IMG/VR virus record: IMGVR_UViG_3300032046_000233
Coordinates: 1-23,038 of that record
Length of the DNA stretch: 23,038 nucleotides
Direction: 5' to 3' (one strand)
Origin: a virus
Of the stretch, positions 1,761 through 21,962 are shown piece after piece (positions within the stretch are counted from its first letter, which is position 1; each line of letters opens with the position of its first letter). The translations under genes and the position numbers were made by a program. The notes under the pieces are model-generated. The model was not told the origin of the DNA and ran no database searches. It was given only the letters and a program-made list of their open reading frames with translations.

Positions 1761-2161
1761 GCGTCAACGATGTGTGTGCCATGTTTGGCGAGGGTATTTC
1801 GATGATCGCCACTGCCACCATCAATGACTACGATGTCGTGAAGCTCGGGACGAACCCCAACGAAGTCGCCAAGACTTCCGCCACGTCAAGTATCCCCTTT
1901 GGGTGGGTGCGTAATGGTGCGGCGGCGGGCTCAAGCGTCACCGTCTACAAGAACGACGGTTGCGTGTTCCTGTGTCGCGCTTCGGCGAACAACATCGCCA
2001 AGGGCGCTCTTGTGGGGCCGACAGCGGACGGAGAGATCGCAACGATCACCGTCGCCGGTGCCGCCAAGAAAGCATGTGGACAGGCGCTCAAGGCGAGTAC
2101 CGCAATCGACGACATCATACCCGTCTGGTGGCAGCCGGGCATCATTCAATCACACGCGTAA
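1757..2161 (+). CDS. Capsid decoration-like protein, paralogue 1 of 3
   Basis: This 134-residue protein is the first of three tandem homologues that align nearly end to end. They share MSVNDV at the start, NDYDVV, GTNPNEV, VRNGAxAGxSVxVY, a Phe/Tyr-Leu-Cys-Arg segment and a DDIIPVxWQP end. The small beta-rich pattern and position between scaffold and major capsid genes match the DUF2190-like capsid cement/decoration proteins, the functional equivalents of lambda gpD. ATG 1757 overlaps the protease stop (ATGA), so translation is probably coupled. This copy is the most diverged, with extra Cys residues and IPFGWVRNG where the others have GVVRNG. Decoration is inferred from family resemblance and position. 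Confidence 0.65.
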   Translation: MSVNDVCAMFGEGISMIATATINDYDVVKLGTNPNEVAKTSATSSIPFGWVRNGAAAGSSVTVYKNDGCVFLCRASANNIAKGALVGPTADGEIATITVAGAAKKACGQALKASTAIDDIIPVWWQPGIIQSHA

Positions 2162-2182
2162 CAAGGAGACGGAGGTGAGCAC

Positions 2183-2584
2183 ATGAGTGTGAACGACGTT
2201 GCCGTGAAGTACGGGCGTCCCGTCTCCATGATTGCCACAGTTGCGGTTGATGACTACGACGTGGTGATTATCGGGACCGGGTGCAACGAGGTAATCAAGT
2301 CCGCCGCCGTGACTAGCAGGGCTCTTGGAGTCGTGCGTAACGGTGCCGCCGCAGGGTCAAGCGTTTCGGTCTACGGACACACGGGAGACGTGTATCTCTG
2401 CCGGCTGGGAACGGGCGGCGCTACGGCTGGGAATGTGTTAGGACCAGCTGCTGATGGCGAGGTCTGCGTTATCACGCCGGGAACCACGAGCCAGCTGGGT
2501 GTTGGCTTTGCCCTGAAAACGGGCGTAGAGAACGACATCATCCCGGTGCTTTGGCAACCGCAGGTATTCGTGACACACGGGTAA
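2183..2584 (+). CDS. Capsid decoration-like protein, paralogue 2 of 3
   Basis: This 133-residue paralogue of its two neighbours is closest to the third copy: both have VDDYDVV, GVVRNGA, SVSVYGHTGDVYLCR and NDIIPVLWQPQV. It sits behind a strong site, GGAGGTGAG (2171-2179) before ATG 2183. It differs locally at GTGCNEV (GTNPNEV in the others) and has a Gly-rich stretch, LGTGGATAGN, where the third copy has ASANITLGD, suggesting one surface loop is free to vary. A capsid cement role is inferred as for the first copy. Confidence 0.65.
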   Translation: MSVNDVAVKYGRPVSMIATVAVDDYDVVIIGTGCNEVIKSAAVTSRALGVVRNGAAAGSSVSVYGHTGDVYLCRLGTGGATAGNVLGPAADGEVCVITPGTTSQLGVGFALKTGVENDIIPVLWQPQVFVTHG

Positions 2585-2603
2585 TTATGAACGGAGGTGA
2601 GAC

Positions 2604-3002
2604 ATGTCAGTAAATGACGTGGTTGTGAAGTATGGCGAGCCAGTTTCGATGGTTGCCACAGCCGCCGTTGATGATTACGACGTGGTGATTCTTGGGACGA
2701 ATCCCAACGAAGTCACGAAGGCAACAGCCGCTACGGACTATGCCATCGGCGTGGTTCGGAACGGCGCCCTTGCGGGACGAAGTGTATCCGTCTACGGGCA
2801 CACCGGAGACGTGTACCTTTGCCGTGCGTCGGCGAACATCACACTGGGCGACCGAGTCGGCCCCGTGACAGACGGAGAGATCGTGACCATCACAACCGGA
2901 AACGCCACACAGCTGGGAATCGGTGTCGCGCTCAAGACAGGCGTCAACAACGATATCATCCCGGTGCTTTGGCAGCCCCAAGTGATCTTTACACACGCTT
3001 AA
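2604..3002 (+). CDS. Capsid decoration-like protein, paralogue 3 of 3
   Basis: This 132-residue protein is the third tandem copy, adjacent to the major capsid gene. It keeps all the shared landmarks (MSVNDV, DDYDVVILGTNPNEV, HTGDVYLCRAS, NDIIPVLWQPQV). Its ribosome site GGAGGTGAG precedes ATG 2604 with good spacing. DNA similarity to copy 2 is obvious at the 3' end (CATCCCGGTGCTTTGGCA in both), pointing to duplication rather than convergence. A role as a decoration or cement subunit on the capsid is inferred. Confidence 0.65.
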   Translation: MSVNDVVVKYGEPVSMVATAAVDDYDVVILGTNPNEVTKATAATDYAIGVVRNGALAGRSVSVYGHTGDVYLCRASANITLGDRVGPVTDGEIVTITTGNATQLGIGVALKTGVNNDIIPVLWQPQVIFTHA

Positions 3003-4046: not shown

Positions 4047-4301
4047 ATGGGAAAGAAACAGTTCATCGTAGTGAGCAACGTACACATGGGCAAGACGCCC
4101 TATACGCTGGTTAGCGGGACTCCTATTGCGACCGCCAAGTGGAACACGCTCGACAAGGGCATCGTGTTCGAGGCCGACGAGGCTGACGTGACGAAACTCT
4201 TGGCGGCGGGTGCGATCAAACCGTACAAGGGTTCCCCAACCGCCAAAGAGCCCGAGCCGGTCGAGGCCGTCAACGAGCCCGCCGCGAAGAGAGGAAAGTA
4301 A
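4047..4301 (+). CDS. Small post-capsid protein, function unknown
   Basis: This 84-residue basic/acidic protein starts at MGKKQFIVVSNVHMGKT. ATG 4047 is chosen because a purine-rich ribosome site (GGGAGAGGACGAAGGG) precedes it; an upstream TTG at 3984 in the same frame falls inside the hairpin and is unlikely. The residues ADEADVTKLLAAGAIKPY resemble the end of small proteins often found after phage coat genes, where a short beta domain ends in a helix with LLAxGAI. The last 25 residues are Pro/Glu/Ala-rich and look unfolded. Its stop overlaps the next start (TAATG). It may be a head-completion or accessory head protein, but no function can be assigned. Confidence 0.65.
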   Translation: MGKKQFIVVSNVHMGKTPYTLVSGTPIATAKWNTLDKGIVFEADEADVTKLLAAGAIKPYKGSPTAKEPEPVEAVNEPAAKRGK

Positions 4302-4897
4302 TGAAGCGAAGGAGCTACATCGAGATCGCAGCGTGGCTCTGCGCCTTCGTTTGTTTCATGGCGTGGACGACGCTACGGGCGGACGAGATCAATCGCAAAA
4401 CAAAAAACCCCTATTCGGCGGGAACGGGGCAGCTCACAACCTCGAACTCGGCGACGTGGAATCTAGCGGACATCGAGGCGGACACCGATAGTTGCGTCTT
4501 TTCAACCGTGTTCGACATGACCAACGCAGACCTCGCGCCGAAGGCTGTCGTGGTCTACGTCGTCTGGACCGCCGCCGCCGGCGGGAGTACGACAACCAGC
4601 TTCGGCGTGACCCTTTTCGCGCATGGCGCGAATACGTCTACCGCAGGATCGAACACGACGCAATTTGATAACCGCGTCCCCCTGGGCGCCTGGCAAGTGG
4701 CTCCAAACGATACTGCATCGGTCGCCTGCAAGGCAACAGCCGCGGGAGAGGCGGTTATGTTCATTGTCGAAAGCGCCTCGCCATATTCGGCACCAAGCGT
4801 GCTCCCCCGTTACGTCAGCGTTGCAATCCAAAAGGAAGGCAACGGAAAGTTTACGGCGGGAACAGTGACGGTCTACATTTACCCCGACGAAGGCTAG
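4301..4897 (+). CDS. Exported beta-rich protein with signal peptide, paralogue A
   Basis: This 198-residue protein begins with a typical Sec signal: basic MKRRSY, a hydrophobic core IAAWLCAFVCFMAW, then TTLRADE, with cleavage likely after LRA (about residue 27). The mature part is Thr/Ala/Gly-rich and beta-like, with no recognised domain. It aligns with the next gene product through W-rich and DTDS segments, VVWTAAAGG, a PRYVSVAIQKEG stretch and an AGTVTVY end. The start overlaps the previous stop in TAATG. Virion proteins assemble in the cytoplasm, so a signal peptide inside the head module is odd: the product may be secreted or displayed on the host surface rather than built into the capsid. 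Function unknown. Confidence 0.75.
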   Translation: MKRRSYIEIAAWLCAFVCFMAWTTLRADEINRKTKNPYSAGTGQLTTSNSATWNLADIEADTDSCVFSTVFDMTNADLAPKAVVVYVVWTAAAGGSTTTSFGVTLFAHGANTSTAGSNTTQFDNRVPLGAWQVAPNDTASVACKATAAGEAVMFIVESASPYSAPSVLPRYVSVAIQKEGNGKFTAGTVTVYIYPDEG

Positions 4898-4907
4898 GGT
4901 GAGAACG

Positions 4908-5501
4908 ATGAAAAGACTTTTGACAGTAAGCATCGCCCTCATGGTGCTGGCGACCCTGGCTAGTTCGCAGACCGTGACGGGTCCGACGGTAAGCAAGTGG
5001 GCGGCGGGAAACACCATGCCAGGCCGGCTGATTGCGAATGGATCGATCGCCTGGAGCCTGTCCACGCTCAACCACGACACGGATTCTTCGATCACAACCG
5101 CCGTGGTTGACTTGACAAACCAGACCCGCCTCGCAGGGATATACTTTTTCAACCTCACATGGACGGCCGCCGCCGGCGGGAACACGGGTACACAACTCGT
5201 TGTGACGCCCTACTGGCATGCCGCATCAACGGACGTGGCTGGCGCAAGCTACGCCAAAAATAGCGTAATGGTCGGTGGATATGGAGTCACCGGATCAGTA
5301 GCGTTTACGGTCACCTGTGCGGCGGTCGCCGCCGGGACGGTGCCGTTCCTGATTACCACTTCTGCCGCGGCGGGAAGTTACCCGACGCCCTATTTTGTTC
5401 CGCGGTATATGTCGTTTGCGCTCGACAAAGAAGGCTCGACAAACCCCGGGCACTTTAGCGCGGGAACCGTCACGCTCACCTGGGAAGCGTACGCCCGATG
5501 A
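4908..5501 (+). CDS. Exported beta-rich protein with signal peptide, paralogue B
   Basis: This 197-residue protein has the N-terminus MKRLLTVSIALMVLATLASS, a clear signal peptide with probable cleavage before Gln-Thr-Val. ATG 4908 is preferred over GTG 4899 because AGGGTGAG precedes it and it puts the Lys-Arg of the signal at the N-terminus. The mature part matches paralogue A: LNHDTDSSITTAVVDLTN, LTWTAAAGG, VPRYMSFALDKEG and FSAGTVTLTW. Coding DNA is also alike where both read GCCGCCGCCGGCGGGA. The two are adjacent and probably co-expressed, which suggests a hetero-oligomer or a diversified surface protein. Cellular location outside the cytoplasmic membrane is inferred from the signal only. 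Confidence 0.75.
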   Translation: MKRLLTVSIALMVLATLASSQTVTGPTVSKWAAGNTMPGRLIANGSIAWSLSTLNHDTDSSITTAVVDLTNQTRLAGIYFFNLTWTAAAGGNTGTQLVVTPYWHAASTDVAGASYAKNSVMVGGYGVTGSVAFTVTCAAVAAGTVPFLITTSAAAGSYPTPYFVPRYMSFALDKEGSTNPGHFSAGTVTLTWEAYAR

Positions 5502-5508
5502 GGAGCTA

Positions 5509-7155
5509 ATGGCGAGTCCATCGGTAGTCGGCACCCCCATTGAGGGTGCCATAACAACGGCGGCATACGACTTCACCCCGACGTTTACCCAAACGACGGG
5601 GAACTTCGTTGTTATTTTTATCGAGACCGCCGTGTCGGTTACGATGGACAGCGTTGGGTTATTCACGCAACTTGAACCCGCCGATCCCGAGGAGCTGGCC
5701 CGCTTCTTTGTTTTATACAGGCAATTAACGGGGATAGAGGGCGGGGAGGTTCTAATATCCACCTACGACGCCATAGGCGACCCCATATTAACCAAAGCCT
5801 GTTGGGTTTCCTGCAACATCACGGCGCACTCGACGACGACCGCTCCCGTCAAAGGAACACTGGCAACCGGCACAAGTAACGAGCCACAATCTCCAGAACT
5901 CACTCCCGCCGGAGGAAGCAAGGATTTCCTCTGGCTCGTTGGCTTTGGACAGGATGGCGAGGAGGCCAACGACGACACTTGGCAGAACAACACGCCTACC
6001 GGAGAGGGGGGTGGATCGTATACACCTGCGCTCGGGTATCAGATAACCACCGGGACCGATGGTGCCGCATCGACCAACTGCCAGCTTTGTGTTGCCTATC
6101 GTGCGTACACGGGAACACACGATCACCCGACAGTTTGGAGTACAGACCAGTCAAAAGCCTGGCGTGCCCAAACGATAGCGATTTATCCGGCGGCTGCCGC
6201 TGCCGCTACAGGCCAAGTCGTAGCCGTCCAGGGGAACGTCACCTACAACCCGATGACAGGACGCCTCACCGCGGCGCAGGGCAACTTGACATACACGCAA
6301 AAGACGGGACGCATAACGGCGGCGAATAGCGTCCTAACCTACGACCGAATGACGGGGCGAATCGCCGCGGCGCAAGCGAACCTGACTTACAATCCCGTAA
6401 CCGCGGGGATGCTTACAGCCATCCAAGCGAACGTCGGCCATACGGAGGTATGGTATATCTTGCCCGCCCCCGGTAGCCCCACAGCCTATTGCACGCTCTC
6501 GGGGCAGTACAAAAACGAATGGACGAACCCGACAAACGCCTACACGTCAAACGGCGTCTACGCGACATCACTCGGTAACGACCCGACAAAAGACGAGCAG
6601 GACTATTACGCCTTCGATCTCTCGGCGATTCCGAGCGACGCCATCATCAAGGGAATTAGGGTCTATGTCTACGGGTCGTGTTCGTACGCGGGCGCGGTTA
6701 TGGATCTCGAGGCGCAGCTCTTGAAATACTATCCACCGGCTCTGCCGCCGCCCGATCCATATATCGAGCCGATTAGCGGGATCGGCCGGCTAGAACTCGT
6801 GGGATCGAGCATTACAAACAGATTCACCGGAACGACCGACACACTCGCCATCTATGGCGGCCAAGAAATCATGTGGGGTGGAACTCTAAGACGAGCAGAC
6901 GTCGTGCGGACAAACTTCGGCGTCTACTTCCGCACGAGATACGTCAGCGGGACCGATGGGCTTCGAGTCGATTATGTCGCAATGGACATATCCTACACAA
7001 CCCCGGCAATTCTCATGGGCGGATTCATTGTGAGAGCGCACGCGACAAAAGGTCTACAGCCATCGACGGGTGGAACCGATTCGATTGATACGAGCGCGAC
7101 ATCGGCAACGGTCACGTCTCATACCGTGCCGAAGGGATGGAGGAGTGTGAACTAA
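5509..7155 (+). CDS. Modular beta-rich virion protein with 16-aa repeats
   Basis: This 548-residue protein starts at ATG 5509 behind GAGGAGC. It has three parts. Residues 1-230 form a beta-sandwich-like domain of the type common in environmental phage surface proteins, running from GNFVVIFIETAV through a Tyr-rich middle to a WRAQTIAIYP end. Residues 235-315 are five tandem 16-residue repeats (consensus GRxTAAQxNLTYxxxT). Residues 320-535 are a second beta-rich domain with WTNPTNAYTSNGVYA and YYAFDLSAIPSDAIIKGIRVYV, a pattern shared with the N-termini of the two tail-tip proteins at 16422 and 17195. Its place between coat and connector genes suggests a head fibre or capsid surface protein, perhaps a glycan binder. 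No enzyme motif is visible. The role is inferred. Confidence 0.65.
   Translation: MASPSVVGTPIEGAITTAAYDFTPTFTQTTGNFVVIFIETAVSVTMDSVGLFTQLEPADPEELARFFVLYRQLTGIEGGEVLISTYDAIGDPILTKACWVSCNITAHSTTTAPVKGTLATGTSNEPQSPELTPAGGSKDFLWLVGFGQDGEEANDDTWQNNTPTGEGGGSYTPALGYQITTGTDGAASTNCQLCVAYRAYTGTHDHPTVWSTDQSKAWRAQTIAIYPAAAAAATGQVVAVQGNVTYNPMTGRLTAAQGNLTYTQKTGRITAANSVLTYDRMTGRIAAAQANLTYNPVTAGMLTAIQANVGHTEVWYILPAPGSPTAYCTLSGQYKNEWTNPTNAYTSNGVYATSLGNDPTKDEQDYYAFDLSAIPSDAIIKGIRVYVYGSCSYAGAVMDLEAQLLKYYPPALPPPDPYIEPISGIGRLELVGSSITNRFTGTTDTLAIYGGQEIMWGGTLRRADVVRTNFGVYFRTRYVSGTDGLRVDYVAMDISYTTPAILMGGFIVRAHATKGLQPSTGGTDSIDTSATSATVTSHTVPKGWRSVN
6211..6450 (+). repeat. Five in-frame 48-bp units (16-aa repeats)
   Basis: Units begin at 6211, 6259, 6307, 6355 and about 6403, the last with one extra codon. 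They encode GQVVAVQGNVTYNPMT, GRLTAAQGNLTYTQKT, GRITAANSVLTYDRMT, GRIAAAQANLTYNPVT and a degenerate fifth. The protein pattern is kept better than the DNA, so the array is old or selected at protein level. Confidence 0.85.
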
Positions 7156-9876: not shown

Positions 9877-10257
9877 ATGGCCGGAGAGGAAGCAAGAGTT
9901 ACTGCGGCGCTCGCCGACCTCACCTACGACGAGATGATAGGGCGGGTTGTGGCGGTGCAGGCCGACACGACGCACACGCTCAAAACTGGCCGAGTGACGG
10001 CGGTTAAGGCTGTGGCAACGGTCACGACAACGGGAACTGCTCTCGGAGACCCCGGCGCGCGCGTACATGCGGTACACGCCGTCGCGACGCGGCCAATCCA
10101 CCACAAGTCAGTCTATGCGGCGCCGATAAACAAGACGTCAACCCACGCCTCGCCGATTAACGCAACGCTGACATACAACGCGCCGCTTGACCCCGAGACG
10201 CTAGACAAAATCGAATCGCCTCCGCGCGGGGGCGACAAAGAACCGATGGAGGAGTAA
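9877..10257 (+). CDS. Repeat-only protein with 16-aa motif
   Basis: This 126-residue protein follows AGGGGGAGGCG and starts at ATG 9877. Residues 6-53 are three tandem repeats of the same 16-residue type seen at 6211 and 17696 (ARVTAALADLTYDEMI, GRVVAVQADTTHTLKT, GRVTAVKAVATVTTTG). After a seven-residue break a fourth diverged unit follows, then shorter imperfect units (YAAPINKTSTHASPIN). The last 25 residues are acidic and Pro-rich. There is no folded domain outside the repeats, so the protein may be an isolated linker or polymerising beta-repeat. It could also be the remnant of a larger modular gene. Confidence 0.6.
   Translation: MAGEEARVTAALADLTYDEMIGRVVAVQADTTHTLKTGRVTAVKAVATVTTTGTALGDPGARVHAVHAVATRPIHHKSVYAAPINKTSTHASPINATLTYNAPLDPETLDKIESPPRGGDKEPMEE
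9892..10104 (+). repeat. 16-aa repeat array, three perfect-length units plus one separated
   Basis: In-frame units start at 9892, 9940 and 9988, each 48 bp. A diverged unit at 10057-10104 comes after a 21-bp break. The third unit (GRVTAVKAVAT) most resembles the single unit at 19331 (GRVTAVNAVAT) in the tail-tip gene. Confidence 0.75.
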
Positions 10258-10260
10258 CCG

Positions 10261-10572
10261 ATGGCTGATAGCACAAACATCATCACCCTCCAGTCTTGGG
10301 GCCAGAAGATTGTCCTGGAGACTGGGGAAGACCTGACGAGCAACACGGGATTGAAGCTCATATTCAAGAATCCCGCCGGAACAACGGTGGAGAAAACCGC
10401 CAGCACGGACGCGGTGACGGGTGGAGACATCTATTGGGTATCGACGACGGACTTTTTCAGTTCGTTCGGGACGGCGGGCAACTGGTACGTCACAGCGAAA
10501 GTCACGTGGGCCGCTGCGGTGCTGTATTCGCGGCCCGTTCTCCTCAGAGTCGTTGACCAGTGGAGCGACTAA
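10261..10572 (+). CDS. Small beta-rich tail-region protein, paralogue 1
   Basis: This 103-residue protein starts at ATG 10261 behind GGAGGAG. It is a paralogue of the next gene: both have a WGQ(K/R)I start, a predicted strand with a D(L/I)YW- or VYWxST-like centre, GxWxVxAxVT(W/F), a YSRP/YTRP motif and a closing VVDQW/VNEW. The fold pattern is that of a small immunoglobulin-like or BppU N-terminal-like domain, as in the gene at 7155. Lying just before the tail tube gene, it is probably a minor tail or baseplate-linking protein. Function is inferred from pattern and position only. Confidence 0.6.
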   Translation: MADSTNIITLQSWGQKIVLETGEDLTSNTGLKLIFKNPAGTTVEKTASTDAVTGGDIYWVSTTDFFSSFGTAGNWYVTAKVTWAAAVLYSRPVLLRVVDQWSD

Positions 10573-10587
10573 CAAAAGGGGGGAACC

Positions 10588-10887
10588 ATGTCCGCGTCGT
10601 TGACGCTCAACAAAGAAGGGTGGGGGCAGAGAATCACGCTCCAAACCGGAGTGTCAATCTCCGGTTATAGCGCGCTTGACCTTGTTTTCTACCGGCCCGT
10701 TGGGGCCGAGGTTGCGGTCTCCGGTACAACCGCAGACGCCGAGGTGGGTGAAGTCTATTGGGATTCAACCTACCACTTCTGGAACGTACTCGGAGACTGG
10801 AAGGTCATTGCCCGCGTGACGTTTGGAACAGACGAGGTGCTTTATACGCGCCCGTACACAATCCACATCGTGAACGAATGGACGTAG
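10588..10887 (+). CDS. Small beta-rich tail-region protein, paralogue 2
   Basis: This 99-residue protein follows AAGGGGGGAACC and is the tandem partner of the preceding gene, with the same length and order of landmarks (GWGQRITLQTG, VYWDSTYHFW, GDWKVIARVTFG, LYTRPYTIHIVNEW). Sequences have diverged enough that the duplication is old. Two copies may form a heteromer or sit at different places in the tail. No other feature is visible. Confidence 0.6.
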   Translation: MSASLTLNKEGWGQRITLQTGVSISGYSALDLVFYRPVGAEVAVSGTTADAEVGEVYWDSTYHFWNVLGDWKVIARVTFGTDEVLYTRPYTIHIVNEWT

Positions 10888-12410: not shown

Positions 12411-12742
12411 CGTTCTCGAAGGCGCTCGTTACCGTGGGGCAAGCGTTCGGGAAGACCCCGCGCGAAGTCTACGAAACGATGGGACTGAACGAGTTCCAGG
12501 CCGCATACGGGGCACTCGCTCACATCGAGAACGCGCACTTCGCCCAAGACGTTCTTTCATCTATGTACGGGAGCCGTGCGGATGCAAAGGCAATAGACGA
12601 AATACTTTTGAAGCTCCGGTCATCGAAGAGCACAGACGAAGCGATTGACCGGGGGGCGATGCCGCTGCCCCCAGTCGAGATCACGACGGGCACACTTGAA
12701 GCCGAGGGGTTTGAAAGGGTTGAGGTAGGGGATGGCAAGTAG
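12341..12742 (+). CDS. Tail assembly chaperone, frameshifted extension (lambda T-like)
   Basis: This is the 133-residue extension read after the -1 shift; with 149 residues from the upstream gene the fusion would be 282 residues. The extension begins with a polar Gly/Asp/Arg linker (RPGHDAGDSPRGEDGRSGED) and then a helical domain, ALVTVGQAFGKTPREVYETM followed by NEFQAAYGALAHIE. No ribosome site or good start codon is seen at its upstream edge (only TTG 12317), which supports production by frameshift. In lambda the G part binds the tape measure and the T part recruits tube protein. The end overlaps the tape measure start by 11 bases. Confidence 0.7.
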   Translation, partial: RPGHDAGDSPRGEDGRSGEDSKLAFSKALVTVGQAFGKTPREVYETMGLNEFQAAYGALAHIENAHFAQDVLSSMYGSRADAKAIDEILLKLRSSKSTDEAIDRGAMPLPPVEITTGTLEAEGFERVEVGDGK

Positions 12743-15455
12743 ATCCGTCGAAATCTTTCTCATCGCAAACGCCGACAAGTGGATCAAGGGGATCGACAAG
12801 GCGACCGCGAAGGCCGACGAACTCGGTCGGGCGATACAGAAGCAGAAGAACATCGCGGACATGAGCTTCAAGGCGGGCGCGGCCCTGTTCGTGGGCGCCG
12901 CCGGGATGATCGCCGCCACCGTCGGCCCTGCGATCAAACTTGAAGACGCTGTTGGGCGCATCGCCGCACAGACAGGGCTGACGGGCGAAGCATACAGCGC
13001 CTTCACGAAGAAACTCTCCGCCGATACCAAGAAGCTCTCCGTTGAGATTGGGGCGTCCCTCGATTCGGTAATCTCCGCTTACGACATGGCCGTCCGTGAG
13101 GGGATCGACCCCGCTTCGGACTCCTTCGACAAGTTCGTCAAGCAAGCCCTCCAACTCGCATCTGTCACGCGCGTAGACCTTCCAACGGCCATTGCCACGG
13201 TCGATAATGTTCTCGACCGCTTCGGCACGACCCTTTCTAAAACCCCAGACGCAATGGATATGCTCTACCGCGCGTCACGTGCTGGCGAGACGGGATTCCA
13301 AGAGTTTACTAATACGCTCGCGCTTACGGCTCAGGCGGCGGGAGCGTTAGAGCTTCCACTAGACAAAGTGGCCGCCCTGATGGCGCTGCTGGGACAGCGC
13401 GGAATGACGGGATCGCGTGCGGGCATGGCAATGGGGCAGGCTCTTGCGCGTCTCGCCACGGCGAGCAAGGACAGCGCAGACAATCTCCACGCTCTCAAGG
13501 TCAATGTGCTTGATCCTACGACGGGCAAGGTGCGCGACCTTGCTGATGTTTTCTCCGATCTTCGCAAGGCAATACTCTCACTCCCAGAGGCGAAACGAGA
13601 CACGGTTCTAATGGAACTCCTCGGCCCTGCGGGGTTCCGCGTTCTCGGTGGACTCATCAAAGATGTCAACACCGATTTTAAGGGCATGTTCAATACCATC
13701 GCCAAGGGCAAGGGCATCAACGACGCCTTTGCCGAGAGCGCAAAATCCGCCGGGCACAAGCTCGACGTGATGAAGGCGTCGATCACCGCCGCACGAACAG
13801 AGATCGGCACGGCGTTTCTCCCGGTACTTGCAGAAGCCGCCGAAGGTCTATCAGGCGTTCTCAAGGCTCTCACCCCATTCATACAGGCCAACGCAGACCT
13901 CGTCGTCCCACTCACAGGCGCGGCGCTTGGGCTTGGCGCGTTCGGCATGGCCGCGGGCAAAGCAGCTTGGGCGGTCACGCTTCTCCGGGCTACATGGCCC
14001 GCGTTCTTTGCGCTGTTTGGTCCGTGGTCAATAGCAATAATGGCTGTCGTTACCGCACTATCCTTGGTCGCCCATTTCACAAAGGGTTGGACTGATAAGG
14101 TCAATGAGGCAAAAACGGCCTTGTCCGAGAAAGAAGCAAGGGCCGAATTACTGCGGGCGAAGATTAAGGAACTTGAGAGCCAACAGGCAACCTACAACAA
14201 GACGCTTGTGGATGGGACAATTCCGGGGCTCAAAGAAGCTAAAGCAGAGCTTGCCAATCTCACCGGAGAGGCGGACAAACTCCAAAAGAAACTAGCTGAA
14301 CTAAGGGGAGAGTGGGTCATACCCGAAACGCTACCCGGTGTTTCGGCGGCGCTCCAACAAGCATTTATAGACCTCTCTGCTGTTCAACGTCAAGCTAGAA
14401 CGGGGTGGGAGGGCGGAGAAGGCGCGCCCATATTTGCCTCACAGGGCGAAGAGATTGAGCGACTCCGGGCGTATATCGATGCGCTCCGCAACAAGTGGGC
14501 GGAACTTGCCACAACCCAGACCTCCGCTACCACCACAACTGACGCCCTGACTGGCGCCACAGTTGCGGGAACCGCCGCGGCCCTCGACAATGCCGACGCC
14601 GTAATGACGATGGGCAAGTACGTTGCCGAGTACGTCGCCAAGGCAAAGCAGGCAAAGCTCGAAGCGGGCTGGCTCGCAGCTCCTGGGGCTGCGGGTGCCG
14701 CGTTACCAACAGGGCCGGAGGAGCCCATAATTCCCCCGCTCGGAGAACAGGCCGCAGATGAGGTGGATCTAGTTCAATCCGAGTGGGCGCGTCTCCTTGA
14801 AAGCGGCATCTCGACGGCGGATCTCCTAGACACAGGATTCGGCGCAGCCCTCTCAGACATGGAGCCCTACGCGCAAGAGTTTGCGGACAGTTTCATCTAC
14901 AACTTTGAGCGCATGCAGGCCGAGGGGAAGAACGTCCTAAAATCCCTCGCCGCCTCTTTCGCCCTGGCGATGATGGACATGGTCAAGATGGCAATACACG
15001 CCGCGATCGCGCAGATCGTTGCGACGAAGATTGCGCAGGTGGCTATCGCGTCAATGCAGGGCTTTATGACGTTCGGCGCCTCGCTCCTTGAGATTGGACC
15101 CATTCTCGCCACAGCCGCCGGGGCCATTGCCGCCTTGAGTGGTTTGCAGAAGAAATTGGGCGGTTACGCAGCCGGGGGCATCGTTCCACAGACGGGTCTC
15201 GTTCTCGCACACGCGGGCGAGCGCATCATCAACCCTGCCTACAACACCGCAAGCGATCTAGTGAACATGCTCTCGGGTACGCGCCTGGCGGCGGCTTTGA
15301 CGCCGGTTCCCGTTGCTTCAGGCGCGGGCGCCCCTGGGATGGCCGCCGCCTCGTTCTACTTCCACATGCCTATCTACGGCAACGTCAACTCCGAACTCGA
15401 CATGGAAAAGGTTATGCGAAAGGCGGCTGACGTTTTCCGAAGCCGCGCGGGGTAA
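12732..15455 (+). CDS. Tail tape measure protein
   Basis: This 907-residue protein is the longest helical, Ala-rich product in the window. Residues 1-100 include ADKWIKGIDKATAKADELGRAI and a hydrophobic GAALFVGAAGMIAATV. Residues 75-330 show the PhageMin_Tail/TIGR01760 pattern, including GETGFQEFTNTLALTAQAA and MALLGQRGMTGSRAGMAMGQ. Hydrophobic stretches follow at about 390-455, coiled coil at about 455-530, and a second hydrophobic block at about 735-800. The end has the common GGYAAGGIVPQTGLVLAHAG and ERIINPAYN motif. The protein fixes tail length (about 136 nm by the 0.15 nm per residue rule) and is ejected with DNA. GAGGTAGGGG precedes ATG 12732. No lysozyme or peptidase motif was seen inside. 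Confidence 0.92.
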   Translation: MASRSVEIFLIANADKWIKGIDKATAKADELGRAIQKQKNIADMSFKAGAALFVGAAGMIAATVGPAIKLEDAVGRIAAQTGLTGEAYSAFTKKLSADTKKLSVEIGASLDSVISAYDMAVREGIDPASDSFDKFVKQALQLASVTRVDLPTAIATVDNVLDRFGTTLSKTPDAMDMLYRASRAGETGFQEFTNTLALTAQAAGALELPLDKVAALMALLGQRGMTGSRAGMAMGQALARLATASKDSADNLHALKVNVLDPTTGKVRDLADVFSDLRKAILSLPEAKRDTVLMELLGPAGFRVLGGLIKDVNTDFKGMFNTIAKGKGINDAFAESAKSAGHKLDVMKASITAARTEIGTAFLPVLAEAAEGLSGVLKALTPFIQANADLVVPLTGAALGLGAFGMAAGKAAWAVTLLRATWPAFFALFGPWSIAIMAVVTALSLVAHFTKGWTDKVNEAKTALSEKEARAELLRAKIKELESQQATYNKTLVDGTIPGLKEAKAELANLTGEADKLQKKLAELRGEWVIPETLPGVSAALQQAFIDLSAVQRQARTGWEGGEGAPIFASQGEEIERLRAYIDALRNKWAELATTQTSATTTTDALTGATVAGTAAALDNADAVMTMGKYVAEYVAKAKQAKLEAGWLAAPGAAGAALPTGPEEPIIPPLGEQAADEVDLVQSEWARLLESGISTADLLDTGFGAALSDMEPYAQEFADSFIYNFERMQAEGKNVLKSLAASFALAMMDMVKMAIHAAIAQIVATKIAQVAIASMQGFMTFGASLLEIGPILATAAGAIAALSGLQKKLGGYAAGGIVPQTGLVLAHAGERIINPAYNTASDLVNMLSGTRLAAALTPVPVASGAGAPGMAAASFYFHMPIYGNVNSELDMEKVMRKAADVFRSRAG

Positions 15456-15458
15456 TGA

Positions 15459-16418
15459 ATGAGCTACGAAGTCAACACGTATCGAATTGAACTGTGCTGC
15501 CCTGGGCTTGGAAGCGGTGCCGAGAATCCTGTTGTCGGGGCGCTATCAACCGAACGCCTCTCGCTATCGCAGTACGGGTTTCGCATCGCCAACCCCTACG
15601 ACATTGTGGGGAGCGTTCAGTCCTATCCGATACCGTTCAAGAACGGAGCGGGCGTCATCACAAGCGGATACCTCGGGGCGCACGACGTTCAACTCATGGG
15701 CACGATTTTCGATTCTACGTCGTATGGACTGTGGAACTCTATTGCGCGGGACTATCTTCTCCGCTGGCTTTCCATTGCCGCGATTCGGCGGGATACTTAT
15801 CTGCGCATTGGCCTCTGGAACGGCGCGACAATCCAATGGTTTCGGCTCTACTGCGTGCTTCGCGAGTCCAACATCCCATTTGTCCAGTATTCGCAGCTGA
15901 CAATAGCAACCCCGATTCAGCTCACGTTTTTCGCATACGATCCCGTGCTCTACGAGGATACCGAGGGGAGCGCCGACATCATTGTCGCCGCCGGGGCGGC
16001 GATGGGCCAGCACCAGCCGTTGAACGACGTGCCGCTCCAAACTGTTTTACTCCCACACCAAACCGGAGCCAACCGGCCCATATTTCGGAGCGTCTACACC
16101 TGGACAAATAGCTCGGGCGCAGACCTCACAATGGTTTCCGCGAACGACATTATGACGGGGAGCACCGCAACCATCACGGACACGATGGCAAACGGCCATA
16201 GCTTCACCATCGACAACTGGAACGGGCTTGTCTACGGGGGCGGCGCAACGAATATGACCAACCGCATGGACAAGTTCACCGGAAACTTCTGGTGGAGCGG
16301 GAACACGACGGCCCACTGGCATATCGATAGAGACCCGCACACCTACGCCCTGACGTTCAACATCAAGTTCTTGAAACCCGCTGCGAACTACTTTGTGACG
16401 CAGCGATACGCGGCATAG
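15459..16418 (+). CDS. Distal tail protein (Dit-like)
   Basis: This 319-residue protein follows the tape measure directly, the normal place of Dit. Its N-terminal half has strand-rich segments (NPYDIVGSVQSYPIPFKNG, HDVQLMGTIFDSTSYGLWN, LLRWLSIAAIRRDTYLRIG, QLTIATPIQLTFFAYDPVLY) in the order of a Dit tube-like domain with a QLxFxAYDP element typical of Sipho_tail proteins. The C-terminal half (about 190-319) is a beta-sandwich (FRSVYTWTNSSGADLTM to THWHID-like end) like the galectin-type domain of Dit proteins. Dit forms the ring joining the tube and tail tip. Start ATG 15459 lies within TAATGAATGAG just after the previous stop. Confidence 0.7.
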   Translation: MSYEVNTYRIELCCPGLGSGAENPVVGALSTERLSLSQYGFRIANPYDIVGSVQSYPIPFKNGAGVITSGYLGAHDVQLMGTIFDSTSYGLWNSIARDYLLRWLSIAAIRRDTYLRIGLWNGATIQWFRLYCVLRESNIPFVQYSQLTIATPIQLTFFAYDPVLYEDTEGSADIIVAAGAAMGQHQPLNDVPLQTVLLPHQTGANRPIFRSVYTWTNSSGADLTMVSANDIMTGSTATITDTMANGHSFTIDNWNGLVYGGGATNMTNRMDKFTGNFWWSGNTTAHWHIDRDPHTYALTFNIKFLKPAANYFVTQRYAA

Positions 16419-16421
16419 ACG

Positions 16422-17189
16422 ATGGTTGTTACCCTATATAAGTCACCAACAACAAGCGGTGGAGTTATTCAGCAATGGACCACGCCACAGAATGTTTACG
16501 CAACCGACAACGCTGTTGCCACCGCCGGGAATGGACTAAGCAATAGTTATGCTGGCTTTGGTTTCACGGCACCGGAGGTTTTTCTTTGTTCCGCAATCAA
16601 TGGGTTTGAGGTGTCCTGTGAGGCAAAAAATAGCGGCACCTCTGGAAACAACCGGCTTGACGTATGGCTAATCAAAGGCGGCGTAAAACAGTCAACGACA
16701 TTAACAAACGCGCAATCGTGGACGACGACAACCGACGCCGCAAAGGTATGCGGATCGTCGTCCGATACCGCCGGGGTTGTGTGGACGGCGAACGACGTCA
16801 TCGATCCGGGATTTGGAATATATTGTACGATGGTTACTGTTTCTGGTACGCGCAACCTGCTGGTCGATCAGTTGAGACTTAGAGTATACGTCACCCCCCC
16901 GAGTTTCTTGGATGTGTTCCCAGGGGAAGGAGATGCCTCGATCCCTGGATATGTTATGCGAGCCAAGAAATGCGCGGTATGTTCTACTAGGGCTTATTAC
17001 GCCCACCACTATTCTTCTCCGCAACGCCTGTTGAATCCAAGTCGTTGTCCTCATTGTTCCAGCGCCATTTCGTATGTATGTAAAGCGCACCAGGCTAATC
17101 CGGTGGTTCCGGCCAACCACACATGGAGCTTTGTAGAACCGGCAACCACGGTATTTTGGAATAGATTTATGGAACTGGAGCCGGTTTAG
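16422..17189 (+). CDS. Lectin-like tail-tip protein with C-terminal zinc ribbon
   Basis: This 255-residue protein has two parts. Residues 1-165 form a beta-sandwich whose first 65 residues match the tail-tip protein of the next gene (VTxYKxPTxxG, WxxPQxxYxxD, SAINGFEV, and a closing LRLRVYVTPP). Residues 180-230 hold a zinc ribbon, CAVC (184-187) and CPHC (209-212), 21 residues apart, with Cys and His nearby (YVCKAH). Such a ribbon at the end of a phage tail protein is unusual. The gene reads as less GC-rich than its neighbours (29 of 60 G/C in bases 16981-17040), hinting at recent gain. It could be a receptor-binding or baseplate decoration protein with a metal-stabilised tail. The ligand is unknown. 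Confidence 0.65.
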   Translation: MVVTLYKSPTTSGGVIQQWTTPQNVYATDNAVATAGNGLSNSYAGFGFTAPEVFLCSAINGFEVSCEAKNSGTSGNNRLDVWLIKGGVKQSTTLTNAQSWTTTTDAAKVCGSSSDTAGVVWTANDVIDPGFGIYCTMVTVSGTRNLLVDQLRLRVYVTPPSFLDVFPGEGDASIPGYVMRAKKCAVCSTRAYYAHHYSSPQRLLNPSRCPHCSSAISYVCKAHQANPVVPANHTWSFVEPATTVFWNRFMELEPV

Positions 17190-17194
17190 CGGTC

Positions 17195-20100
17195 ATGTCT
17201 GTTACTGCCTATAAAGGTCCAACCGCCGACGGGCAGATCATTGATGCCTGGAACAACCCCCAGTATGCATACACCATAGACGTGCTTTATTGGGCCATAT
17301 GCTCGACGTGGGACCCTCCGACCAATGCCGAGGACTTCTATCATTTTGACTTTACATCTTCTGACATCCCCGCCGGATCAGCCATTAACGGTTTCGAGAT
17401 CGAGATTACCGGCCACAATGGGACCACGGCATGCACAACAAACATGCATTGCAAGATGGTCAAGGACTCTACTCACACCTACGGGGATGAATATGCATAT
17501 CTGAGTGTGTTCGACTCGGATGAAACGATCACGGTTGGGAGTTCAACCGAGCTGTTTGATACGACCTGGACACAGGCCGAAGTGGTTGCCGACACGTTCG
17601 GCGTCAAGGTCTGGCCTGTCAGGATTACAACAAGTAGTTGGCACGCATGCCATATCAACGCGGTTCGTATTCGCGTTTACTACACGAAACCGACGGCCAC
17701 GGTCACCGCTGCACAGGCCGATCTCACCTACACGATTCCGACGGGTCGGGTAACTGCAGGGCAAGCTGATCTCACTCACTCACTTAAAACGGGCCGTGTC
17801 ACTGCAGGGCAAGCTGATCTCACTTACTCGCAGAAAACCAGTCGCGTCACGGCGGCCCAAGCCGATCTCACTCACTCGCTTAAAACGGGCCGCGTCACTG
17901 CAAGCCAAGCCGATCTCACTTATACAGAAACAGGAGAGCCAGAACCTAGCCCGCCGATAAAGCCGTCGGGAACCTTCTACTACATCAAATCGGGTGGCAA
18001 CAACGCGAGCGCGGGAACATCTTGGGCAACCGCCTGGGCGGACACGGACAAACTCCACACACTCTATCCCCTTCCCTGCCCGATAACAAGCACCGATTGC
18101 ATCGTCATTCGGTCGGCCACCTACATGCCGACCTTAACCGTGATGATTTGGAAAAGCCAAGTCACCATCGTCTCCGAAAAACAAGCCGTCGCCTACCTGT
18201 GGATCGACCAGGACGCCGAATACATCAACGCGGTGCCGGTCATCGATGGGACGAACATTCTCGACAACACGGGCGGGCGCAACCCGTACTCACAGGACAT
18301 TCTCGCGCTCGACGTGCCGGGGAACCGCGGCGGCGGAGTCGAGAACGACTGCCATAGCTTCACGCTCGACGGCATCAATCTCATCAACGGCAAGCGGAAC
18401 GGTTTTTGGACTTCCTGCGTCACGGGTGGCACACGCGCATACAACGCCTTCCATGAGATTCGCAATTCAACCATAAGCTACTGCGCAGCGACCGGCGTTT
18501 ACGGTCGACAAGCGAATGACTTCTATCTCCACGACGTCGAGCTCCACCATAACGGGGATGGCGTCGAGGCGCATCTTGTCCACGCCGTCTACCTCAATGA
18601 CTCGGACAACGTGCTTATCGAAGACGCGATTGTCCGTGACACGTTGAACGCCGGGGCAATCCACCTAAACGGCGACAAGGTAAGCGGCGTTCAGGGGTTC
18701 ATGCGGAACGCCATCGTGCGCCGGTCAAAGTTCTGGAATAACAAGGGCGTCGACATCGACCTCTACAACGCCATCGGCGGGCGGGTCGAGAACAACGTCA
18801 TTCATACGCCGCTTGCCACCACGACCCACATCAATTCGCTCATTTACGTCGGCGTCGACGCGTTGGGTGTACCCTTCCCCCAACCGTCAAACGGCGTCGA
18901 GATCGTCAACAACACTCTCGTCTGTGCCGCAACCCAGAACGACGCCATTCGCCTGGGTTCATCGCCGGGAGAGGCCAAGAACTGCGTCGTCTTCAATAAC
19001 ATCGCCGTAACCGCGGATGGGATAGCGGCAACATCAATCATCTCCGACTCCACCGACAACCACACCATCGTGCCGAATAGCGTTGTAGCGTACACAACCG
19101 GGAACCTTACGGCATGGTTCGTGGACCCGCTCAATGCAACACTTGCGTCGAGAAACTATCACCTGAAGGTTGGGGGCCCGTTTTTTAACGCTGGCGCGAA
19201 CTCCGTCTACAATTCGGAAACCGGAACGGTCTTCGCGCCGCTCGAAGACTATGACGGACTCCACCGACCGCAGGGCGCGGGATTCGACACGGGCGCTTTC
19301 GAGTATCCCGTGGCAGGCCCCACAGTCTACGGGCGGGTCACCGCCGTAAACGCGGTCGCAACCTACACAGAACTCCCGTGGGAACGTGCCTCATTCGCGC
19401 CGCTTCAAACCTTTCAGCTCGAAGACTATCGCATAGACTTCATGTCGTGGGCAGGCGCGCGAAAGGACTCCGTTCAACGGGCCTCTGGATACAACCCACT
19501 CACGTTTCTCGACTTCAAGTTGAACGCAAACGGCGGCTGTGGAGACGCAACGATAAAGCTCCTACGCGAGCGCGTGCCCGGCCCCCCGCGTGCGGCACAG
19601 TTCGGATACCTCATGGAGCCCGGCGATGTCGTGGACGTCTGGCTCCATTCGTGGTACTTCGGGGACGCACTATTGCAGTGGTATCAGGGTGTAATCACGA
19701 AGGTCGAAGACCCCGAGGGATTCGGGGATACCATCACGATTGAGGCGCGGGGCATATGGGACGAGATCCTCGAGAAGCGCCTGGTGACGAAATACTACGA
19801 GGGGAAGGCCATCAATGTCATGGTGGCCGACATTCTCGCAGACGTGGCCGCCGAGAGCAGGATATCGACCTCCACGGCGGGAATCGTCGTTACTTCCCCG
19901 TACACTATCGACGACGTGGAGTTGGAACTCACGTCGGTTGCCGCTGCAATCGAATCCCTTGCCGCTGTTCAGGGGAACATCCAGTACGGCATAGACCCGT
20001 CTGGCGTGTTCTACTTCAAGACGCTTGATGCTACAACGAAACTCACGGCGCAAGTGGGGGTGAACGTATCCGATTACAAGAAGCACGGCGAATCGAATGA

Positions 20101-21577
20101 CGTGACAAACCACTACCTTTTGCAAGCCAAGCAACTCGTCGGGGGTGCAAACCTTATTCTCTCGCGTGAGGACGGGGTGTCGATAGCGACCTACGGCCGG
20201 CGGACGAAGATCGTCCAGGCAACAGGGCTACAGAACATCTCTGATCTCTACCGATACGGCGACATGCTTCTCGACGAATCGGCAGAATACAAGGATCACG
20301 TTGACGTTGAAGTGACCGGGGACGTGTACTACCTATTCCCCCGCGGCAAGTGCAACGTGGCGAAGCTCGACAAGACGTCGCTTCCGCTAGACATCCAGTC
20401 TGTCAGATACACGTTCGAGGGTAACGGCAAAATGACACTTGGCTTGGGAGACGCGCCCGTCTCGACGCTCTCCGACGAGGTGAAGCGCATTTCTCGGAAC
20501 ATCTCCGTCGGCAAACAGACGGCCATGTCGAACACGAAGATTGAGCACACGAAAAGCGACGAATGGACCCAGACCGTCCGCCTTGACGCAGGCAAGCAGG
20601 GGAACCTCACCGTTTACTACGACATCTTCCCCGACGAAACCGGACTCGATCAAGCGCGCTCCCACGGGTACACCTTCGACTCCAGACGCGGATTTATGCG
20701 AGCGGGGCCTGAACTCGCCCCAAACTCCTGCTCGATTCAATCCCAAGCTATTCCCATCGGTGTTCAGGTGGACACGATCCGCGTCTACACGAATACGAAC
20801 CTTAACGGCATGATCGACTTCAACACCGGGGACGATATCCGCGATTACTTCACACAGCCGGACTCGGGACTGTGGGCAATCTCCGACCTGGGGAGCTACC
20901 TATACGATACCCGTGATCCGGCCGGATCGTTCCTTACGTTCGATGGGGATAAGTACATCTACCCGACGATCTACTTTGTGAGACTGACAGGCTTCACCCA
21001 ACTTCCCACGCCCACTGGCGAGGTCGCGTGGATCATTTGGAACTACCATGCCGACGACGGCATCGACCCGGAGTCGTATCACTACATCAAAATCTACGCA
21101 ACGGCCACGACGGGTCAATTCGAGATGAAGACGTACGACGGATCGACACACACGCTCGTTAACGGTCCCATCGCGTCGAACGATATCGGAAGAATTGATC
21201 TCGAGGTTCGGCACTCGGGGACGGGGAACACCACCGCCGCCCTATACCGCCGGTCAACCGGGGCTTTGCGAGGTACGCTCACGGGATCGCTCACGTCCTA
21301 TGCCTTCCGCCCACCGAAGCTCTTCAACTTCGGGAACCCCTACGGACAGCAACCGTGGATTGTGGATTCGATTGGTCTCACGCGCTTGACGAAGTGCGAC
21401 GTATACGCCTCGCGTGACGGCGGAACGACGTGGACGCTTGCAACTATCGCAGATGGGGAGACCGTCGTGGACGTTGACGTATCGACGCAACCGGCGGGTT
21501 CAACGATATGCTTGAAAGCGGTTATGCAGTACCCGTCGCGGCTAAACGGATGGGGCTGGTCCGCGAAAACGAGCTAG
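17195..21577 (+). CDS. Mosaic tail-tip protein: beta-sandwich, repeats, beta-helix, hub domain, ConA-like end
   Basis: This 1460-residue protein is an assembly of modules. Residues 1-165: beta-sandwich paralogous to the preceding gene. Residues 168-247: five 16-aa repeats (GRVTAGQADLTHSLKT type). Residues 260-705: right-handed parallel beta-helix, from FYYIKSGGNNASAG with Asn-rich turns (NCVVFNNI, IEIVNNTLV-like) to a GLHRPQGAGFDTGAFEY end typical of secreted bacterial beta-helix proteins. Residues 713-726: one more repeat. Residues 730-1100: baseplate hub (gp27/Tal-like), with LEDYRIDFMSW, PGDVVDVWLHSW and DTITIEARGIWDEIL. Residues 1210-1395: ConA/LamG-like domain. The hub should close the tube; the beta-helix probably binds or degrades surface glycan. 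In known Tal proteins the hub is N-terminal, so this order is odd. Confidence 0.8.
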   Translation: MSVTAYKGPTADGQIIDAWNNPQYAYTIDVLYWAICSTWDPPTNAEDFYHFDFTSSDIPAGSAINGFEIEITGHNGTTACTTNMHCKMVKDSTHTYGDEYAYLSVFDSDETITVGSSTELFDTTWTQAEVVADTFGVKVWPVRITTSSWHACHINAVRIRVYYTKPTATVTAAQADLTYTIPTGRVTAGQADLTHSLKTGRVTAGQADLTYSQKTSRVTAAQADLTHSLKTGRVTASQADLTYTETGEPEPSPPIKPSGTFYYIKSGGNNASAGTSWATAWADTDKLHTLYPLPCPITSTDCIVIRSATYMPTLTVMIWKSQVTIVSEKQAVAYLWIDQDAEYINAVPVIDGTNILDNTGGRNPYSQDILALDVPGNRGGGVENDCHSFTLDGINLINGKRNGFWTSCVTGGTRAYNAFHEIRNSTISYCAATGVYGRQANDFYLHDVELHHNGDGVEAHLVHAVYLNDSDNVLIEDAIVRDTLNAGAIHLNGDKVSGVQGFMRNAIVRRSKFWNNKGVDIDLYNAIGGRVENNVIHTPLATTTHINSLIYVGVDALGVPFPQPSNGVEIVNNTLVCAATQNDAIRLGSSPGEAKNCVVFNNIAVTADGIAATSIISDSTDNHTIVPNSVVAYTTGNLTAWFVDPLNATLASRNYHLKVGGPFFNAGANSVYNSETGTVFAPLEDYDGLHRPQGAGFDTGAFEYPVAGPTVYGRVTAVNAVATYTELPWERASFAPLQTFQLEDYRIDFMSWAGARKDSVQRASGYNPLTFLDFKLNANGGCGDATIKLLRERVPGPPRAAQFGYLMEPGDVVDVWLHSWYFGDALLQWYQGVITKVEDPEGFGDTITIEARGIWDEILEKRLVTKYYEGKAINVMVADILADVAAESRISTSTAGIVVTSPYTIDDVELELTSVAAAIESLAAVQGNIQYGIDPSGVFYFKTLDATTKLTAQVGVNVSDYKKHGESNDVTNHYLLQAKQLVGGANLILSREDGVSIATYGRRTKIVQATGLQNISDLYRYGDMLLDESAEYKDHVDVEVTGDVYYLFPRGKCNVAKLDKTSLPLDIQSVRYTFEGNGKMTLGLGDAPVSTLSDEVKRISRNISVGKQTAMSNTKIEHTKSDEWTQTVRLDAGKQGNLTVYYDIFPDETGLDQARSHGYTFDSRRGFMRAGPELAPNSCSIQSQAIPIGVQVDTIRVYTNTNLNGMIDFNTGDDIRDYFTQPDSGLWAISDLGSYLYDTRDPAGSFLTFDGDKYIYPTIYFVRLTGFTQLPTPTGEVAWIIWNYHADDGIDPESYHYIKIYATATTGQFEMKTYDGSTHTLVNGPIASNDIGRIDLEVRHSGTGNTTAALYRRSTGALRGTLTGSLTSYAFRPPKLFNFGNPYGQQPWIVDSIGLTRLTKCDVYASRDGGTTWTLATIADGETVVDVDVSTQPAGSTICLKAVMQYPSRLNGWGWSAKTS
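17696..17935 (+). repeat. Five near-identical 48-bp units (16-aa repeats)
   Basis: In-frame units start at 17696, 17744, 17792, 17840 and 17888. They encode ATVTAAQADLTYTIPT, GRVTAGQADLTHSLKT, GRVTAGQADLTYSQKT, SRVTAAQADLTHSLKT and GRVTASQADLTYTET-. The DNA is very similar between units (GCAGGGCAAGCTGATCTCAC occurs twice), so this array expanded or was homogenised more recently than the one at 6211. Confidence 0.9.
19331..19372 (+). repeat. Single copy of the 16-aa repeat between beta-helix and hub
   Basis: GRVTAVNAVATYTE is encoded directly after the beta-helix end and before the hub domain. With the array at 17696-17935 it brackets the beta-helix. It is closest to a unit in the gene at 9877 (GRVTAVKAVAT). 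Confidence 0.75.
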
Positions 21578-21587
21578 AGAGGACAGT

Positions 21588-21962
21588 ATGGCAGACGAAA
21601 AACAGATTGGGCCAAAATGGACGGTGAACGGGAACACCGCGACGGTACTCAATCTTCTCAAAATCATCGGGATCATCGGGGCGGTAATCTACGCACTTGC
21701 TCAATTTATCATTGTGAGCCAGCAGACCCGCGCGCAGTTGGGCGAACTCAAGGCCCAACAAACAATCATCGTTGTACAATTAACTACTTTGTCGGCACAG
21801 ATGAACAATCATCTTGGCTGGACGGATGCGCGGGATCGCGAGCTTGATGCTGTTATCGACGAAGATCAGCGGCGACTTGATCGGCTCGAATCTATAACAC
21901 TTGGAGACGCTCTCGATAGAAAACTCAATAACCGCTTGGCTCCGAAATCTCAGACGAGGTGA
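21588..21962 (+). CDS. Membrane-anchored coiled-coil protein, possible holin or lysis accessory
   Basis: This 124-residue protein has a polar N-terminus, one hydrophobic segment (about 19-43, VLNLLKIIGIIGAVIYALAQF), then a long Gln/Leu/Arg-rich helix likely to be coiled coil (about 45-115). GAGAGGACAG precedes ATG 21588. A single transmembrane helix followed by a charged helix, in the first gene after the tail tip, is a layout seen in small phage lysis proteins (holin or accessory) and also in haemolysin XhlA-like proteins. No endolysin lies in the window, so a lysis role cannot be confirmed from neighbours. A membrane location is well supported; function is not. Confidence 0.6.
   Translation: MADEKQIGPKWTVNGNTATVLNLLKIIGIIGAVIYALAQFIIVSQQTRAQLGELKAQQTIIVVQLTTLSAQMNNHLGWTDARDRELDAVIDEDQRRLDRLESITLGDALDRKLNNRLAPKSQTR

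Follow-up and report, generated by a model that had tools for sequence, protein, structure and literature searches.

A putative tail-tip hub with a beta-helix and repeat arm ahead of the hub domain in a tailed-phage record

The window, i.e. the whole stretch of DNA analyzed here, is a 23,038-base virus record whose plus strand holds head genes, a tape measure gene, and tail genes; the tail genes, repeat copies, and protein domains mapped below lie on that strand. At the start of the record, the first gene (1–417), which is head-morphogenesis-like, shares its last bases with a tRNA-Thr (TGT) gene (400–475). Three tandem paralogous genes with 50–70% identity (1757–3002) lie ahead of the capsid gene and all match phrog_673 (head scaffolding); for comparison, the gene adjoining the capsid gene of Arthrobacter phage Ottawa is annotated as a head fiber protein. 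Together with two further adjacent paralogue pairs (4301–4897 with 4899–5501, and 10261–10572 with 10588–10887, 35% each), this trio indicates that local gene duplication is frequent in the phage. Distant matches to the capsid protein occur in Roseobacter phage CRP-6 (26%) and the Arthrobacter phages Ottawa and Kharcho (23%).

The tail region includes a tape measure protein (12732–15455; PF10145, E 2e-25; phrog_28, E 2e-42), followed by a probable distal tail protein (Dit; 15459–16418) recognized by position and by eye, for which profile family scans returned no match. One gene (16422–17189) separates this candidate from an open reading frame of 1460 aa (17195–21577), which is a single unbroken frame. 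The frame encodes, in order, an N-terminal beta-rich domain (17195–17692, aa 1–166), five tandem repeats (17693–17932, aa 167–246), a right-handed beta-helix region (17945–19312, about aa 255–705), a sixth repeat copy (19328–19375, aa 712–727), a baseplate hub (Tal-like) domain (19376–20449, about aa 728–1085), and a C-terminal region (20450–21577). The order of five repeats, beta-helix, one repeat, and hub given in a preliminary description made from the sequence is thus confirmed, and its view of a modular arm fused to the hub is supported. The C-terminal region appears lectin-like by eye only, and family profile scans gave no match above the cut-off.

The N-terminal domain is marked by a paralogue, a profile match, and low synonymous GC3. 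It shares 27.6% identity (E 4e-14) with the product of the preceding gene, which carries the same type of domain without repeats and ends in a Cys-rich tail. No window copy of the domain has a Pfam match above cut-off, and a jelly-roll fold for aa 1–166 would be a guess. A counterpart by profile comparison is the N-domain of UOF77207 (hhalign, probability 99.4, E 3.4e-21), a protein of podovirus MW202473, which was assembled from a spring sample. UOF77207 has the same order as the window protein, i.e. an N-terminal-type domain, short tandem repeats, and a tail-protein domain; however, its repeat is unrelated, its tail domain is a different one (phrog_394, E 1.2e-35), and it has no beta-helix. 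A profile of the N-terminal domain that includes UOF77207 matches 14 of 251 Chloroflexota genomes and 2 of 246 Actinomycetota genomes; among 47 phage or virus records, the single match is the podovirus already in the profile. Several of the Chloroflexota carriers look secreted by eye, including a subtilase-like protein and a beta-helix protein with an anchor-Q-like end (L287), and the domain recurs in large, apparently secreted Chloroflexota proteins (L272–L287). Separately, the C-terminal part of the preceding gene product, next to the hub gene, holds a CxxC...CxxC cluster resembling a zinc ribbon or an iron-sulphur site; an iron-sulphur cluster in a tail-tip protein is described for lambda and RcGTA in the excerpted text of PMC10721106.

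The tandem array between the N-terminal domain and the beta-helix was delimited by repeat scoring and by Tandem Repeats Finder, which reports a period of 48 nt and 4.3 copies at 17720–17926, i.e. a unit of 16 aa. The sixth copy, on the far side of the beta-helix, reaches 23.0 bits when scored by a matrix derived from the 13 other copies in the window, while the best nonrepeat 16-mer in the listed ORFs reaches 12.0 bits with the same matrix. None of 2000 shuffles of aa 247–1460 attains the score of the sixth repeat (highest, 16.0), so the repeat proposed on both sides of the beta-helix is genuine. The closest relative of the sixth copy is the third copy in gene 9877–10257 (11/16 residues, 56% DNA identity); compared with repeats 1–5 of its own gene, it matches at 6–10 of 16 residues.

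The same 16-aa family is found in two other genes of the window, both without a beta-helix. Gene 5395–7155 contains five copies, the last of them weak (6208–6447), followed by an N-terminal-type domain (about 6475–7041) that resembles aa 1–90 of the hub protein, and gene 9877–10257 contains three (9889–10032). In two genes the repeat lies beside domain borders, and in a third it takes up a large part of the first half, which makes its reading as a linker a natural one; judged from these positions, it acts like a domain joint used repeatedly, in three or more genes of the virion region. A match of the repeats to DUF1833 (23 bits on the isolated piece against a cut-off of 21, and under the cut-off in the full protein) was set aside as repeat-composition noise. 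A repeat-pattern scan of viral contigs gave at least 119 stretches; among the 121 loci examined, no tandem array of this type was found except the window's own, and a stricter pattern gave 0 matches. The scan of genomes with the repeat pattern returned 101 stretches, none of which is a 16-aa RVTA-QADL-type array by eye; most belong to one conserved HQSG protein, which we take to be MurG.

The beta-helix region is Pro-rich at its start and closes with a choice-of-anchor Q segment (aa 654–704). As the preliminary description had proposed, a beta-helix with an end of the secreted-protein type is recognized, with both profiles passing their cut-offs on isolated pieces only: PF13229 scores 26.3 bits on the isolated piece (cut-off 25.9) and 21.7 bits, under the cut-off, in the full protein, and NF041518 (choice_anch_Q) scores 25.9 bits (cut-off 25) and 24.5 bits, just under it, respectively. 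An AlphaFold model of the region has a pLDDT of 28.9, too low to use. No catalytic or glycan-binding residue was identified, and a role of the beta-helix as a polysaccharide-cutting enzyme is hypothetical. In the literature searched (titles and abstract openings) for hubs with a beta-helix, repeats, or choice-of-anchor Q, we found no paper describing the present arrangement, and none that mentions phage together with choice-of-anchor Q.

The beta-helix and the N-terminal domain could, alternatively, be purely structural, e.g. a stalk or a trimer-stabilizing element with no receptor or enzyme role. The lack of an identified catalytic motif fits this, as do the short beta-helices that excerpts of PMC9692632 describe in lactococcal Tals. 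However, exoprotein-type features mark both the end of the beta-helix and the N-terminal domain, and at about 450 aa the helix region is far longer than those lactococcal helices (PMC9692632, in part), so that we consider a purely structural arm unlikely.

The hub domain is assigned through phrog_1887 ("tail protein"), a hub-family profile that matches aa 827–1041 with an E-value of 5.9e-8 on the isolated piece and 7.7e-7 in the full protein. This match, and the position of the gene downstream of the tape measure, support the hub identity claimed earlier. The N-terminus is not occupied by the hub, whose domain begins near aa 728 and whose profile match begins at aa 827, so that a hub-first architecture is absent. 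The AlphaFold model of aa 706–1122 (pLDDT 33.0) is too low in confidence for the fold to be read, and sequence searches of the PDB gave no believable relative. Similarity to individual relatives is weak: hhalign of the window hub against nine hub relatives gives a probability of 24% (E 8e-4), the best single-sequence E-value against relatives is 0.015, pairwise BLAST against an Arthrobacter hub finds nothing, and a hub model built from 18 relatives without the window sequence recovers the window hub only marginally (domain E 0.0049). The relatives themselves match phrog_177 ("baseplate hub") and PF24032 (YQBQ-like), the latter just under the cut-off.

Matches to phrog_1887 occur in 14 of 296 Actinomycetota and 32 of 301 Chloroflexota genomes; a single-sequence search with the hub hit 0 of the 301 Chloroflexota genomes. 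The position of the hub was tallied for 20 Chloroflexota loci (14 of the 34 Chloroflexota match rows have no locus); L246, whose match falls outside the hub part of phrog_1887, is not counted in the tally. About 300 aa precede the matched hub in 11 of these loci (L248, L250, L253–L257, and L259–L262) and an estimated 176 in one, the hub comes first or nearly so in six, and two are cut. The 11 long proteins thus resemble the window protein in carrying additional material before the matched hub in the same chain, but their extra part looks BNR- or beta-propeller-like by eye, whereas that of the window protein is a beta-helix. PF13088 (BNR_2) was detected in one of three long proteins scanned, with an E-value of 0.0096 that is below the cut-off standard. 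Because the long proteins begin with residues similar to the start of a hub, the module may lie within the hub itself. One Chloroflexota hub-family protein (L269) has no obvious phage genes in its listed neighborhood. For the high-GC Actinomycetota loci, start codons are uncertain, and hence the lengths before the hub are too. Two Actinomycetota hub proteins are 80% conserved over 440 aa, a stretch that takes in a short N-terminal domain, which indicates that the N-terminal part was not exchanged between these two.

Among phages, the phrog_1887 hub of Arthrobacter phage Ottawa is a separate 391-aa gene, the second after the tape measure, and Ottawa is the sole match in a phrog_1887 search of 50 records, the other 49 being IMG/VR records from at least 119 pattern loci. 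In TaylorSipht, Karkharias, and Salgado, too, the hub is encoded by a short gene of its own. Searches of viral contigs with protein patterns of the full protein, the hub, the tape measure, the capsid, a head-gene alignment, and the Dit candidate found no relatives, nor did tblastn against phages with the full protein, the hub, the beta-helix, and the repeats, and a hub pattern scan of genomes gave no match. No relative with the same N-terminal arm was found in the viral contigs, phages, and genomes searched.

Known hubs are described as trimers beneath the Dit ring (excerpts of PMC7291167), and they are decorated in many ways (PMC7291167, PMC10276861, PMC10721106, PMC9692632, and PMC13243795, each in excerpt). 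The window protein shares with siphophage Tal or baseplate hubs (gp27-like; e.g. T5 pb3, p2 ORF16, and SPP1 gp21) its place after the tape measure, a hub-family profile, and a long multi-domain chain. In those Tals, however, the hub is N-terminal with extensions after it, whereas about 727 aa precede the hub here. Material before or interrupting the hub is also found in lambda gpJ, whose hub segment lies away from the N-terminus (PMC7291167), and in gp32 of Salmonella phage Jersey, whose N-terminal extension is a domain on a flexible tether (PMC13243795); unlike the window protein, neither is described in the excerpts of PMC7291167, PMC10721106, and PMC13243795 as having a beta-helix, a 16-aa repeat array, or a choice-of-anchor Q end. 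The earlier statement that known lysins place the hub first therefore fails as a universal rule, given lambda gpJ, Jersey gp32, and the 11 of 20 Chloroflexota loci. "Evolved" Dit and Tal proteins with carbohydrate-binding modules also fuse host-contact modules to a tail-tip core; according to the excerpts of PMC7291167, those modules decorate or sit inside the core, whereas in the window protein they precede the hub, and none lies inside the hub core.

We compared codon composition along the tail genes using synonymous GC3 corrected for amino acid, with significance assessed by codon shuffles and block shuffles. The 1460-aa gene has a single GC3 break, which follows codon 251, where the five repeats end, and is reached in 0/2000 codon shuffles and 0/2000 block shuffles. 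Within aa 255–1460 there is no break (the best split is reached in 1648/2000 shuffles). The segment with atypical GC3 (16410–17944) comprises the preceding gene and aa 1–250 of the hub protein, ends with the repeat array, and is the oddest of the tail module (0/60 block shuffles reach it). A small gene after the hub (21588–21962), which encodes a hydrophobic segment and a coiled-coil-like end, has atypical codon composition as well, with a mean GC3 residual of -0.160, so low GC3 is not peculiar to the arm. The beta-helix thus groups with the hub in composition, and it is the N-terminal domain, together with its repeats, that stands apart.

This pattern bears on the proposal of the preliminary description that the beta-helix is an exchangeable cassette, inserted between the repeats by homologous recombination. 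A real repeat copy does flank the beta-helix on each side, and the end of the beta-helix is bacterial-exoprotein-like, but the beta-helix and the hub have a common codon composition, with the break falling before the beta-helix, on which ground we rejected a compositionally foreign insert; the shared composition argues against insertion between the repeats. In addition, the sixth repeat has only 44–52% DNA identity to repeats 1–5, making recent recombination between the flanking repeats unlikely, and the presence of the repeat in two other genes without a beta-helix means that flanking repeats are what a linker would be expected to show. We therefore regard the cassette as improbable, and the insertion claim is not upheld; an older insertion of the beta-helix whose composition has since adapted may still have occurred. 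From the GC3 break, we infer that the N-terminal domain and repeats were added or exchanged later than the beta-helix.

Between aa 690 and 790, in-frame start codons occur only at aa 706, 750, and 776. By eye, no obvious ribosome-binding sequence accompanies any of them, and the start of the 1460-aa gene itself likewise has no obvious one. Cleavage of the product by a protease, or initiation at an internal start, leaving arm and hub as two proteins, is for us the least probable alternative: the domain boundaries are sharp, and excerpts of PMC10721106 describe hubs spread over several proteins in lambda and RcGTA, but the open frame is one and holds no good internal start near the hub, so that a separation into two proteins, which the preliminary description named as evidence that would refute it, is unsupported.

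We consider it probable (roughly 60%) that the 1460-aa protein is a trimeric tail-tip hub with an N-terminal host-surface arm of exoprotein-type modules. The protein would be the hub (Tal, baseplate hub) of a tailed phage, encoded downstream of the tape measure gene, and its arm would run from an exoprotein-type beta-rich domain through a five-repeat tether, a right-handed beta-helix, and a one-repeat joint to the hub core and its C-terminal extension, with the 16-aa repeat serving as a domain-joining linker that the phage also uses in its other virion-region genes with the repeat. Hubs are generally trimers. If this one is too, the tail tip would bear three protruding arms that contact surface glycans, for binding and possibly hydrolysis. 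Surface glycan contact is the most likely function of the arm; because both AlphaFold models are unusable, we infer the trimer and the fold, as we do the virion position and the glycan binding of the arm.

A more tentative idea, which we hold possible rather than probable, is that one short repeat is a standing joint in several virion genes, letting bacterial exoprotein-like modules plug onto virion proteins, the hub included. The most recent exchange would then have been that of segment 16410–17944, one of whose joints would lie where the repeat array ends. Decorated hubs and N-terminal extensions are known, and the beta-helix and repeat arm ahead of the hub looks like an unusual variation on them. 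It also suggests a route by which a tail hub could gain a long host-contact arm N-terminally rather than C-terminally, and it provides, in the repeat array, a concrete candidate joint where arms might be exchanged. If true, recurring repeat joints in several virion genes would be a simple mechanism for modular tail-tip evolution.
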